A stretch of 64,000 bases of DNA from an uncultured Eubacteriales bacterium (GTDB taxonomy: Bacteria; Bacillota; Clostridia; Christensenellales; Aristaeellaceae). Location of the stretch: contig CACWZI010000021.1 in NCBI GenBank assembly GCA_902765305.1, forward strand, positions 61,654-125,653, read 5' to 3'. The position numbers and the translations under genes are program-made. Every line of letters starts with the position of its first letter. Within the stretch, counting starts at the first letter, position 1. This document shows positions 15,303 through 23,104 of this stretch, piece after piece. The notes under the pieces were generated by a model. The model was not told the origin of the DNA and searched no databases. It saw only the letters and a list, made by a program, of their open reading frames with translations.

Positions 15303-16499
15303 TCAGGCCTTCCCCCGCCGCGCCTGAACCGCGCGGTAAGAGCAAGCCTCCGCCAGGGCGACCAGCGCGTTCAGGTTCGCGTCCGGGTTGTAGACGCGAA
15401 TGACCTTCGACAGGTCGTCGAAATTGTAGGCGTTCATGGCCGCGCTGGTGGACAGGGCATACTTCTCGTTGTAATCCTCGGCGCTGTCGGAGACCCAGAA
15501 GCCCTGGGTCACCTGTACAGCCCTGCCGTCGTCCCGGAAATCCGCGGCGTAGCCGGTCACCGCATTGAGCATCAGCGCGAAGGCGGGGCCGATCATCGAG
15601 TTGTACTTGCCGACGACGAAACGCAGCACACCCTCGGTGACCAGCTGCAGGTTTCGGGTGTTGTAGCTGTCCACCACGCCCAGCGGCGTCTTTCCGATGA
15701 CTTCGACCATCTCCATCGGCGGCAGCACCGACAGCACGGCGTCGTATTTTCCGGCCTCAAAAGCCGCCTTTGCCGTCTGAAGCGGATCTTCGCCGCTGAT
15801 ATAGCCCGGGCAAACCGTCACGCTGACGCGGTCGGTGGAAACGGTCACGGGCACGTCGGACAGCGCCAGCTCCGTGCGGGATTTGTCGAACACCGCCCCA
15901 TAGGCGTTGGCAAGGGCATCGAGTATGCCCAGCGTGCGCTGGTAGTGCATCTCGTTGCCCAGAGGCGCGCCGCCGCTGAGCACAAAGTAGTTCGCGCCCG
16001 TCTTTTCGCGGATGAAGAAGCGGGCCATGTCCGCGCCGGCCTGGAACTCGAAGGGCTGGCCGGGGCCAAAGGCGCCCAGGAACCAGGGGTTGTCCCGCAC
16101 CGCTTCGAAGTCCTCCGCGGCAACGGTACCCGAGGCGAGCATGTAATAGGCGTTGTTCTTCTCGCACAGCGCTACCTCGCCCTTCAGGTCATAGCTCAGG
16201 AAGGACATAAAGCCCTCGACGCCGTCGTCGCAGGCCGCCTGTATGAAGGCCAGCTCCTCTTCCCCTGAACCGATGGAACCGGAATACACAAAATCGACCA
16301 TCTCGAAGTTGTCCTCGATGTAGCCCTTCAGGTATTCCCGGAAGCCGATGACCTCCTCGTCGGCGGTGTTGTAGACGATCACGCCGATCTTGTGGACCTC
16401 GGCGTCGGTTTGGGGAGATTCCTCCGGTTTCTTTCCTGAACAGCCCGCGAGGCCGGCGCACAGCGCCAGCGCCAGGAAGAGCGCCATCAGCCTCTTCAT
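15303..16499 (-). CDS. Type-1 periplasmic-binding-fold lipoprotein
   Basis: A 398-residue lipoprotein: signal peptide with lipobox LAGLAGC (Cys20), then a two-lobed fold starting HKIGVIVYNTADEEV, which resembles sugar-type or BMP-type (class 1) binding proteins. It is not a partner expected for an Opp-type importer, whose binding protein is class 2. Its ATG overlaps the stop of the second ATPase gene (ATGA), so it is translated with the transporter. The ligand is unknown. As the seventh gene behind the B12 riboswitch, it may be a second receptor or a sensor for the same nutrient. Confidence 0.75.
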   Translation of the reverse strand: MKRLMALFLALALCAGLAGCSGKKPEESPQTDAEVHKIGVIVYNTADEEVIGFREYLKGYIEDNFEMVDFVYSGSIGSGEEELAFIQAACDDGVEGFMSFLSYDLKGEVALCEKNNAYYMLASGTVAAEDFEAVRDNPWFLGAFGPGQPFEFQAGADMARFFIREKTGANYFVLSGGAPLGNEMHYQRTLGILDALANAYGAVFDKSRTELALSDVPVTVSTDRVSVTVCPGYISGEDPLQTAKAAFEAGKYDAVLSVLPPMEMVEVIGKTPLGVVDSYNTRNLQLVTEGVLRFVVGKYNSMIGPAFALMLNAVTGYAADFRDDGRAVQVTQGFWVSDSAEDYNEKYALSTSAAMNAYNFDDLSKVIRVYNPDANLNALVALAEACSYRAVQARRGKA

Positions 16500-17470
16500 G
16501 CGCTCACCCCTTCCCCGTAGCGGTGGCAGGCCACCTCGTGGCCCGGGCTGATCTCAGTCAGCACAGGCCTGCGCTCGCGGCAGATTGGCATGCACTGGTC
16601 GCACCGATCCTGGAACGGGCAGCCGACGGGTACATCCAGCGGGCTCGGCGGCTCCCCCTTGATGGGCTCGATCTTCCTGGAGAAATCCATTTTCGTATCG
16701 AACACGGCATTCAAGAGCGCCTTTGAATAGGGATGGCAGCACAGAGAGGACAGCTGGTCCCCCGGCATGACCTCCACGATATTGCCCAGGTACATCACGG
16801 CGATCTGGTGGGAGAAGGACTGTATGAAGCCCAGGTTGTGGCAAATAAAGCCGATGGTGATGTTCTTTTCCCGCTGCAGCCGCGTGATCAGCTCGATGAC
16901 CGTCTCCTGCACGGACACGTCCAGCGCGCTGGTGGCCTCGTCCATCACGACGATTTCCGGCTCCAGCGCCAGGGCCCTTGCGATGGCCACGCGCTGGCGT
17001 TGGCCGCCGGACATGTTGTGGGGATAGCGGTCGGCGAAATCGCCGGGCAGCTCCACCATCTCCAGCAGCTCCCGGGCCTTCTCGTCCCTCTGGGAATGCC
17101 TGATCCGCCCGTAGTTGAGCAGCGGTTCGCAAACGATGTCCCTGATCTTCATCTTGGGGTTGAAGGAGGTGGACGGATCCTGGAACACCATTTGGATGTG
17201 CTGGCGCATATCGTGCAGCTGACGTCCCTTCAGCTTCGTGATGTCCTTACCCCTGTAGAGGATCTCGCCCTCGGTAGGCCGATCCAGCCATACCAGGAAG
17301 CGCATGAAGGTGCTCTTGCCGCAGCCGGATTCCCCCACCAGTCCGAGGGTCTTTCCCCGATACAGCTTCAGGTTCACGTCGTTGCAGGCCACCAGCTCCC
17401 TGCCGCTGGGCGTGGAAAAGCGTCGGGTGACATGCCGTGCCTCCAGCAGAAGGTCCTTTTCGTCAAACAT
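16496..17470 (-). CDS. Opp/Dpp/Nik-type ABC transporter ATPase, second (OppF-like)
   Basis: A 324-residue ATPase with Walker A GESGCGKST, Q-loop MVFQDPSTSFNPKMKI, signature MSGGQRQR, Walker B IVVMDEATSALDVSV and the H-loop in CHNLGFIQSF. Asn replaces the expected threonine-histidine spacing (CHN), but the His is kept. The C-terminus has the oligopeptide-transporter extension with cysteines (VGCPFQDRCDQCMPIC) that in relatives binds an iron-sulfur cluster. The start overlaps the previous ATPase gene by 8 bases. Confidence 0.92.
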   Translation of the reverse strand: MFDEKDLLLEARHVTRRFSTPSGRELVACNDVNLKLYRGKTLGLVGESGCGKSTFMRFLVWLDRPTEGEILYRGKDITKLKGRQLHDMRQHIQMVFQDPSTSFNPKMKIRDIVCEPLLNYGRIRHSQRDEKARELLEMVELPGDFADRYPHNMSGGQRQRVAIARALALEPEIVVMDEATSALDVSVQETVIELITRLQREKNITIGFICHNLGFIQSFSHQIAVMYLGNIVEVMPGDQLSSLCCHPYSKALLNAVFDTKMDFSRKIEPIKGEPPSPLDVPVGCPFQDRCDQCMPICRERRPVLTEISPGHEVACHRYGEGVSA

Positions 17471-18251
17471 AGCGCTTCCCTCCCAGTGACGGAACCGCCT
17501 TGATCAGCTTGCGCGTATAGGCGTTCGTCGAATCGTTCAGGATATAGCCCCGCTCGCCCTGGTCCTCGATGCGCCCATCCTTCATCACGACCACGTGATC
17601 CGCCATGTAGGCGGCGACGCCGATGTCGTGGGTGACGATGATGATGGATGTGCCGTATTCGTCCCGCAGCTCCATCATCTGGCGCACGATCTGGGCCTGT
17701 GTGGTGACGTCCAGCGCGCTGGTGGGCTCGTCCGCCAACAGCAGCCTGGGCTGGTAAGTCATGCCCATGGCGATGCCCACGCGCTGGCGCATGCCGCCGG
17801 AGAGCTGGAAGGGATAGGAATTCATGATGCGATCCGGGTCCGGAAGGCGCATTCGGCCCAGCATTTCTGCGCCCTTCTTCCAGGCGTCCTGCTTTGATAT
17901 GGATTCGTGAGTTCGGATGTATTCCACGAAGCTCTTGCCGATCAGCCGGGTCTGGTTCATCATCGCCCCGGAATCCTGAAAGATCATGGAGATGTCCCTG
18001 CCTCGCAACGACCGCCATTCACCCTTGCTCAGCTTGAGCAGGCTGCGGTTTTCGTAGACGATGTCGCCCGCGGTGACACTGCCGCCGCCGGGCAGCAGCC
18101 CCAGCACGGCGCGGATGACCGTGGTCTTGCCGCTGCCGCTCTCGCCCACCACCGAACAGATCTTCGCAGGATCGAGGGCGATGGAGCAGTTTTTCACCGT
18201 CAGGCTCTTGCCATAGGAGACGTCGATGCCTTTGATGTCAAGCAATGCCAC
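17463..18251 (-). CDS. Opp/Dpp/Nik-type ABC transporter ATPase, first (OppD-like)
   Basis: A 262-residue ATPase with Walker A GESGSGKTT, signature LSGGMRQR, Walker B LLLADEPTSALDVT and switch His in VTHDIGVAAYMAD. It is shorter than OppD (about 320-350) because it lacks the Cys-rich C-terminal extension, as in NikD. The SVVGESGSGKTT block and the LSGGMRQRVGIAMGM stretch are typical of this subfamily. It sits 6 bases after the second permease gene and overlaps the next ATPase gene. Confidence 0.92.
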   Translation of the reverse strand: MALLDIKGIDVSYGKSLTVKNCSIALDPAKICSVVGESGSGKTTVIRAVLGLLPGGGSVTAGDIVYENRSLLKLSKGEWRSLRGRDISMIFQDSGAMMNQTRLIGKSFVEYIRTHESISKQDAWKKGAEMLGRMRLPDPDRIMNSYPFQLSGGMRQRVGIAMGMTYQPRLLLADEPTSALDVTTQAQIVRQMMELRDEYGTSIIIVTHDIGVAAYMADHVVVMKDGRIEDQGERGYILNDSTNAYTRKLIKAVPSLGGKRYV

Positions 18252-18257
18252 GGGCGG

Positions 18258-22829: not shown

Positions 22830-22890
22830 ATTGCAGCCAAAACAAAACCATCCGGGCTTCAGAGATCCGTGAAGCGAATGTTATGATCCG

Positions 22891-23062
22891 ACACAGGCAA
22901 GTCTTCTGGCTCATGGGTCATCGCATCCACCGTCTTCCCGGTCGTTCGACCAGTGACCTATTGGCTTCTGCTCTCCAAATACAGCGGCGGCCCCGCGCGG
23001 GATTCTCACCCGCTTCCTTTTTCAGCCCTTCCCGGGAAAGGTCACCTGTGACGCCTATTCAA
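22891..23062 (-). promoter_or_regulatory. Cobalamin (B12) riboswitch
   Basis: On the minus strand the parts of the B12 aptamer occur in order: AATAGG at the 5' end, AAAGGAAGCGGGTGAGAATC, the B12-box-proximal GGGGCCGCCGCTGTA, then GTCACTGG, CCGGGAAGACGG, and the closing B12 box AGCCAGAAGACTTGCCTG. Length about 172 nt, normal for the class. It lies 134-305 nt before the deacylase start, with a terminator between, so the seven-gene importer operon should be shut down when cobalamin is plentiful. Confidence 0.95.
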
Positions 23063-23075
23063 TTGTGACAAGAAT

Positions 23076-23104
23076 ATGTTAACACATATTAGAAACCCTG
23101 TCAA
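23076..23104 (-). promoter_or_regulatory. Promoter of the B12-regulated operon
   Basis: On the minus strand TTGACA (23099-23104) and TAACAT (23076-23081) are 17 bases apart, just upstream of the riboswitch. Confidence 0.65.

Follow-up and report, generated by a model that had tools for sequence, protein, structure and literature searches.

The stretch analysed here, 64,000 nucleotides from an uncultured Eubacteriales bacterium (contig CACWZI010000021.1, positions 61,654 to 125,653; hereafter the window), carries on its minus strand a seven-gene operon headed by a cobalamin riboswitch. Downstream of the leader the genes follow in the order deacylase, solute-binding protein (SBP), two permeases, two ATPases and a lipoprotein. 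They are separated by intergenic gaps of 66, 62, 4 and 6 nucleotides, followed by overlaps of 8 and 4 nucleotides. The open reading frames and the Pfam matches (AstE_AspA_cat, SBP_bac_5, BPD_transp_1 twice and ABC_tran twice, with oligo_HPY on the second) agree with the gene order and close spacing that a first-pass annotation had read from the letters. The features are:

23076..23104, minus: promoter-like site of the riboswitch transcript, TTGACA-17-TAACAT (10/12), with TG before the second hexamer, from a consensus scan
22879..23064, minus: cobalamin riboswitch aptamer, full-length match to the covariance model RF00174
about 22789..22829, minus: terminator-like hairpin with four terminal U, between the aptamer and the first gene, from sequence and folding
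21744..22757, minus: M14-like deacylase of the AstE/AspA family, 337 amino acids (PF24827, E 2.3e-26, 93 bits versus 25)
20118..21677, minus: SBP_bac_5 solute-binding protein of the Nik/Opp type (PF00496, E 1.3e-70)
19099..20055, minus: permease of the NikB/Opp2B type (NF045470, 384.8 bits, passing the cut-off of 350)
18258..19094, minus: permease of the NikC/Opp2C type (NF045474, 331.9 bits, passing the cut-off of 300)
17463..18251, minus: ABC ATPase 1 (ABC_tran; top models CntF, CntD and NikD, each under its cut-off)
16496..17470, minus: ABC ATPase 2 with an oligo_HPY C-terminus (Pfam, NCBIfam)
15303..16499, minus: lipoprotein with a class-I SBP fold, here called lipo1 (AlphaFold and Foldseek; without a Pfam or NCBIfam match)

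The riboswitch matches the full RF00174 model (positions 1-189) with 123.8 bits against a gathering score of 31.5 (E 1.3e-30), which bears out the complete aptamer described in the first-pass annotation. The promoter scan covered 11 kb and returned 7 such sites versus 3.4 (standard deviation 2.1) in shuffles. The terminator reported earlier corresponds to the hairpin listed above, which is probably the expression platform. Leaders were folded for 10 of the 14 riboswitch-led loci described below, and by visual reading a hairpin and a U run stand ahead of the first gene in all ten. The ligand-bound leader is predicted to repress, i.e. to act in the off-switch direction. A DUF1848 gene (window 23214-24215) diverges from the riboswitch promoter and bears no sign of cluster membership.

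Riboswitch and operon are conserved together, a point that the first-pass annotation had proposed to survey. Our comparison table comprises 22 loci (L numbers; genomes carry G numbers), and a cobalamin riboswitch heads the cluster in 14 of the 18 loci that have DNA upstream of the first gene. Eight of these are the window and L036, L037, L038, L039, L040, L042 and L044 (deacylases 68-71% identical); the other six, L075, L100, L101, L138, L139 and L140, belong to family f31. Together they span six genera in two families, with L037, whose contig ends after riboswitch and deacylase, outside the genus count. L103, L141 and L145 were kept out of the riboswitch count since their contigs end within the operon, and L137, whose contig begins 2.5 kb upstream, in the ATPase gene, was counted as riboswitch-free. 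Duplicates (L036/L142, L038/L144, L039/L046, L040/L045, L042/L143 and L007/L044) were counted once. L102, which holds lipo1 without a transporter, and L104-L109, where lipo1 lies beside Rbs-type genes, were excluded from the counts; the RNA search covered L104-L106.

The core gene order is SBP-B-C-D-F-lipo1. It is B-C-SBP-D-F-lipo1 in L138 and L140, and lipo1 comes first in L139. In the latter locus (L139:309-2117, G859), lipo1 and the SBP gene are each preceded by a cobalamin riboswitch, the two lying 1.4 kb apart, so that the lipoprotein is linked to B12 control in its own right. Overall, the system is patchy. It occurs in 8 of 28 genomes of the genus, in 9 of 397 f31 genomes searched at E 1e-70 (with G822 and G721 showing it in other contexts) and in 3 of 398 genomes of a phylum sample, the window's own included. 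The permeases of L136 are 78-80% identical to those of the window and come from another family, which suggests transfer. A Fusobacterium relative (L151) has the order B-C-SBP-D-F with permeases and ATPases 53-55% identical, and there neither a lipo1 match nor a riboswitch was found. These loci came from a genome-contig scan and from genome searches. The scan gave eight deacylase relatives, all in metagenome-assembled genomes titled Clostridia, Clostridiales, Lachnospiraceae or Clostridiaceae. A search of the class with lipo1 matched 20 of 391 genomes at 22 places; most were distant class-I SBPs with Rbs-type ABC genes alongside, and 11 of the 22 were read. In family f31, 15 of 250 genomes matched; ten regions and G494 were examined, and G621, G663, G732 and G798 were left out.

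The transporter itself is of the Nik type. The Opp2B and Opp2C families passed by the two permeases carry 'nickel' permease names, and the scores fall short of the cut-offs of the E. coli-type models for NikB (303.9 of 447 bits) and NikC (302.1 of 358.45 bits). In a tree, the first permease groups with E. coli NikB, away from DppB, OppB and GsiC (98/97, with a long-branch warning from the tree program). The SBP scores best with the NikA-type family NF045468 (202.8 bits), ahead of DppA (82.6) and OppA (60.7), all under cut-off: the NikA models NF045468 and TIGR02294 require 600 and 393 bits, the latter giving 167.9, and DppA requires 1005. In the SBP tree, 13 cluster SBPs together with the Fusobacterium and L048 relatives stand apart from E. 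coli NikA, DppA, OppA and GsiB (100/100), the separation from DppA involving long branches. The SBP thus does not side with the dipeptide receptors, in line with the first-pass annotation. The lipoprotein, which had been called a class-1 binding protein, was modelled with moderate confidence (pLDDT 65.9), and its top Foldseek matches are sugar SBPs (5ocp, E 9.6e-9, TMq 0.55, TMt 0.70). That assignment is upheld insofar as this moderate model points to a class-I fold of the sugar type. With the class-I model Peripla_BP_4, the window lipo1 gave no match and its L075 relative scored 23.4 bits against a cut-off of 35.1; distant lipo1 relatives adjoin Rbs-type ABC genes.

As to the genomes that carry the system, the suggested co-occurrence with incomplete cobamide synthesis is contradicted: cbiC is present in 18 of 19 carriers (8/8 in the genus, 10/11 elsewhere), and the single miss is a genome of 68% completeness. 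In the genus, 26 of 28 genomes encode a CbiC-like protein with a weaker match (E about 1e-32 to 1e-35), in most cases alongside true CbiC, e.g. at G000:C10:34838-35368. The window bacterium appears to make vitamin B12 de novo. In its genome (93% complete), no CbiM and no NicO were found, and riboswitches stand before CbiK, before a FecCD permease and before a gene set that includes cobA-hemD and a TP-methylase; hemA, hemL and hemC in this set were named by eye. The riboswitch-led CbiK-type cobalt chelatase (PF06180; L049:13980-16015, contig 16) has what looks like a signal peptide as well as an additional N-terminal region, and it is followed by the gene for a second apparently secreted, small protein without a Pfam match. 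In our judgement, an extracytoplasmic CbiK seems unusual in this group. A further cobalamin riboswitch of this genome (L004) precedes an iron-containing alcohol dehydrogenase (L051:11322-13272, contig 3).

The first-pass annotation had left out the adjacent metal exporter, which we regard as the best clue to the cargo. Downstream of lipo1, four more genes continue on the operon strand, from 15161 down to 11042:

15187..15215, minus: promoter of arsR, TTGACA-17-TATAAT, 12/12 to consensus
14790..15161, minus: ArsR/SmtB-family metalloregulator (NF033788, 109.5 bits, cut-off 55)
14547..14765, minus: small heavy-metal-associated (HMA) protein, 72 amino acids (PF00403, E 3.7e-7)
12545..14458, minus: P1B heavy-metal ATPase with a CPC motif (TIGR01525, 556.7 bits, cut-off 346.25; TIGR01512, 502.8 bits, cut-off passed)
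11042..12394, minus: MATE exporter (PF01554, E 8.4e-50)

A TGAAC..GTTCA palindrome, read from the sequence, follows the arsR promoter. Twelve of the 22 loci have a P1B ATPase next to the cluster, often with an HMA protein (window, L036, L038, L039, L143, L044, L101, L139, L041, L043, L136 and L137). The DNA examined at L075, L100, L103, L138 and L140 contains none, and at L037, L040, L141 and L145 the contig stops before this point. Eight of the 22 have a MATE exporter next to the cluster (window, L143, L075, L100, L101, L103, L139 and L136), those of L075 and L139 sharing only about 30% identity. At L101 (L101:15011-16036, G810), a cation-efflux gene stands behind a NiCo riboswitch (RF02683, 41.1 bits, cut-off 37) directly upstream of the riboswitch-led importer; predicted end-product sensing and predicted metal sensing lie there side by side. 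The P1B ATPases at L043:6995-9982, L041:7265-9904 and L137:1-2439 have His-rich N-termini and sit beside an importer for which no riboswitch was detected; those of L041 and L043 contain two HMA-like repeats.

The start of the deacylase is most likely at 22757, where an ATG follows AAGAAGGTG; the start in the open reading frame list, 22811, falls inside the terminator region. PF24827 is the sole Pfam family matched at E 0.001, with no CbiZ match, and the DoeB equivalog cut-off is not attained (89.2 of 402.7 bits). Across 11 aligned homologues H67 and E70 (HxxE), H154 and E215 are invariant, residues to which we presumptively assign the zinc site and the catalytic Glu. In the NR motif, the Arg is the usual ligand of the substrate carboxylate. 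Here the window protein has NLNG where the PDB relatives 3na6 and 6twl show NLNR, and the Arg is replaced by Gly or Ala in nine close deacylases aligned. Taking this role of the Arg as given, the substrate of the close deacylases should be one without the usual amino-acid carboxylate. The Arg is kept in the looser relatives L047, L048, L101 and L103, and L103, whose deacylase lies beside lipo1, speaks against Arg loss as a general rule.

A deacylase adjoins the cluster in the window and seven close loci as well as in L041, L043, L103 (37%) and L137 (31%). The L101 homologue is distant (30%) and separate from the cluster. The clusters of L075, L100, L136, L138, L139 and L140 lack the gene, and all of these but L136 bear the riboswitch. 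The deacylase is an accessory part and, not being constant, is unlikely to be needed for transport. The L101 homologue (L101:16897-17931) ends in a CPVC...HHHHDHF tail that looks metal-binding. At L048:2306-3880, two methyltransferase homologues lie downstream of a Nik-type ABC cluster, itself divergent from a deacylase gene, a layout which makes the pairing of hydrolase and Nik-type import a wider theme.

Taken together, the B12 control, the Nik-type permeases, the linked metal export, cbiC in the carriers and the window's own genome, in which no CbiM or NicO was found and a separate FecCD permease has its own riboswitch, make it probable that the operon encodes a high-affinity cobalt importer which supplies de novo cobamide synthesis, the metal most likely entering as a small chelate. 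Aptamer, hairpin, gene set, conservation and the cbiC of the carriers are observed; we infer cobalt as the cargo and the off-switch direction, as well as the roles of lipoprotein, deacylase, ATPase and MATE exporter. Of the first-pass reading, the B12-controlled Nik/Opp-type uptake operon, with cobalt chelates among the options, is retained, and the link to incomplete synthesis is dropped. With adenosylcobalamin or a related cobamide plentiful, the leader would bind it, the terminator would form and the genes would be off; when cobamide falls, the operon would be read through. The NikA-like SBP would then capture the metal, possibly chelated, and the Nik-type permease pair with the two ATPases would import it, the class-I lipoprotein perhaps serving as a second receptor or an accessory of the same uptake. 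Siderophore hydrolases provide an analogy for the cleavage of chelators; similarly, where present, the apparently cytoplasmic metallohydrolase might cut an amide or ester of a co-imported chelator and so free the metal. Finally, the importer may be promiscuous, and the ArsR-controlled P1B ATPase may then expel any divalent metal that is the wrong one or in excess.

It is important to note that a number of observations weigh against cobalt import. The P1B ATPase has a CPC and not an SPC motif; CPC we take to denote the Zn/Cd/Pb type and SPC the P1B-4 type. Given the perfect consensus promoter of arsR, the export genes of the window genome are probably a separate transcript, and the ATPase accordingly appears to be expressed from a promoter of its own. 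In the SBP tree, the cluster proteins are not joined to NikA. We presume four E. coli NikA residues, R137, W398, Y402 and H416, to be ligand contacts. None of the 13 aligned cluster SBPs conserves R137, Y402 or H416, so the comparison with NikA proposed in the first-pass annotation turned out negative; the correspondence of W398 varies with the alignment. Just past the H416 position, 11 of the 13 (not L138 and L140) have a Tyr-Cys pair that could possibly be a metal ligand. The AlphaFold model of the SBP has a pLDDT of 39.3, too low for a pocket analysis. The consensus terminator scan, which reported 8 sites in total versus 7.0 in shuffles, did not report the leader hairpin (22829-22789), in our opinion because its U run pairs inside the stem. 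No riboswitch was detected at L041 and L043 (E up to 0.1), at L136 or at L137 (gathering score only in the case of L137). A strong cbiC match is also present in 15 of 20 non-carriers of the genus, a background rate that applies within the genus only. Strong CbiM occurs in 1 of 8 carriers versus 10 of 20 non-carriers of the genus, a contrast that is not significant (Fisher p 0.099) and is uncorrected for kinship; weak matches (E 1.5e-5 to 1.9e-4) were not counted, and the tally with them is 13 of 28. Outside the genus, CbiM is found in 6 of 11 carriers (7 of 19 overall), and hence the system does not simply replace CbiM. According to the portions of PMC11477304 and PMC7689651 that we could draw on, the NiCo riboswitch class may sense Fe(II).

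A more specific version of cobalt import would be a dedicated metallophore pathway. The SBP would take a cobalt-loaded organic chelator, the deacylase, whose close members lack the NR Arg, would hydrolyse it in the cytoplasm and so release cobalt for corrin synthesis, the MATE protein would export the chelator or a fragment, the end product would shut import, and a metal-sensed P1B or CDF pump would handle the excess. We put this forward as a tentative possibility with the odds against it.

The operon could instead import corrinoids or cobinamide for remodelling, the deacylase being an unrelated stand-in for CbiZ that cuts the nucleotide-loop amide. The B12 riboswitch would suit such a role, the PDB relatives of the SBP include haem-binding proteins, so that the family can take tetrapyrroles, and in D. 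restrictus operon-2 a riboswitch, a Fep/Btu-type importer and CbiZ are joined, as far as the accessible part of the source tells. Carriers nearly always have cbiC, however, the FecCD permease of the window's own genome has its own riboswitch, the linked genes are metal exporters instead, and the deacylase is missing from the six clusters named above. We therefore rejected corrinoid salvage as the best reading, chiefly for the cbiC of the carriers and the separately controlled FecCD permease, and regard it as unlikely.

Import of nickel, zinc or mixed divalent metal-chelates by a transporter that has fallen under B12 control would account for the nickel names of the permease families, for a P1B ATPase that by its motif looks Zn/Cd-type, if our class assignment holds, and for L041, L043 and L137, which keep this ATPase without a detected riboswitch. 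Yet cobalamin control in six genera fits cobalt and not nickel or zinc, and the carriers have the corrin gene cbiC. Nickel import as the best reading was rejected on the B12 control, and we give this whole class of cargo a rather poor chance. Least probable of all is an importer of peptides or amino-acid conjugates for a route used in place of a B12-dependent enzyme, in which the deacylase would release the amino acid, a reading which SBP_bac_5 and AstE/AspA membership, the proximity to DoeB (far under cut-off) and the Arg retained in L103 would favour, but which we rejected as the best reading because the close deacylases have lost the NR Arg, metal export genes lie nearby and the deacylase is not constant.

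How cobamide-making gut anaerobes without CbiMNQO or NiCoT obtain cobalt is, in our judgement, poorly known. In the present locus, an RNA that senses B12 recurs together with a Nik-type importer and, in many cases, a metal exporter, a concrete candidate unit of cobalt homeostasis. The locus further provides a class-I binding protein that no Pfam model covers, as well as an M14-like hydrolase of unassigned substrate. Annotators could rename some of the 'dipeptide/nickel' transporters in rumen and gut genomes.

Several known systems invite comparison. The staphylopine importer CntABCDF is an Opp-type importer for metal-chelates. The window operon likewise encodes an Opp-type importer, and its ATPase 1 scores best with CntF and CntD, whereas the window proteins stay far under the cut-off for all Cnt models listed; among the seven operon genes, Pfam and NCBIfam recognised no chelator-synthesis gene. 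With DoeB, AstE and aspartoacylase (PF24827), the deacylase shares the family, the HxxE...H zinc site and the catalytic Glu, in the roles presumed above, but it differs by the Gly or Ala of its close members in place of the NR Arg and by its score under the DoeB cut-off. E. coli NikABCDE has the gene set A-B-C-D-E, and its NikB groups with the first permease; the presumed NikA ligand residues and the SBP tree set it apart, as do NikR and nickel control, which the available excerpts ascribe to E. coli. Dehalobacter operon-2, in the part of PMC4285132 at hand, also combines, within a single operon, a B12 riboswitch with an ABC importer and an amide hydrolase, although the SBP, permease and hydrolase families are others.

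Other cobalamin-controlled uptake is on record in the sections available to us: 12 cobalt-transport orthologues were counted in cobalamin regulons (PMC3766115), and three C. difficile cobalamin riboswitches lead cbiMNQO, a Btu-type importer and cob/cbi genes (PMC11477304). Among the literature matches listed, no title or abstract opening dealt with this gene set, subscription papers being mostly outside the coverage. B12-regulated import of the Opp/Nik type, which the first-pass annotation had deemed unusual, has a precedent. NikABCDE members of C. tetani and D. hafniense are predicted to lie behind a B12 riboswitch, as exceptions to nickel specificity, a prediction that the accessible text of PMC2667541 credits to Rodionov et al. 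2006. They share with the window a Nik/Opp-type five-gene ABC importer behind a cobalamin riboswitch, apart from the nickel-specific NikABCDE; the comparison is by description only, and the deacylase, the class-I lipoprotein, the P1B ATPase and the MATE exporter go unmentioned in the same portion of that paper. What is new relative to the known B12-riboswitch Nik systems is the class-I lipoprotein, together with the deacylase and the link to metal export.

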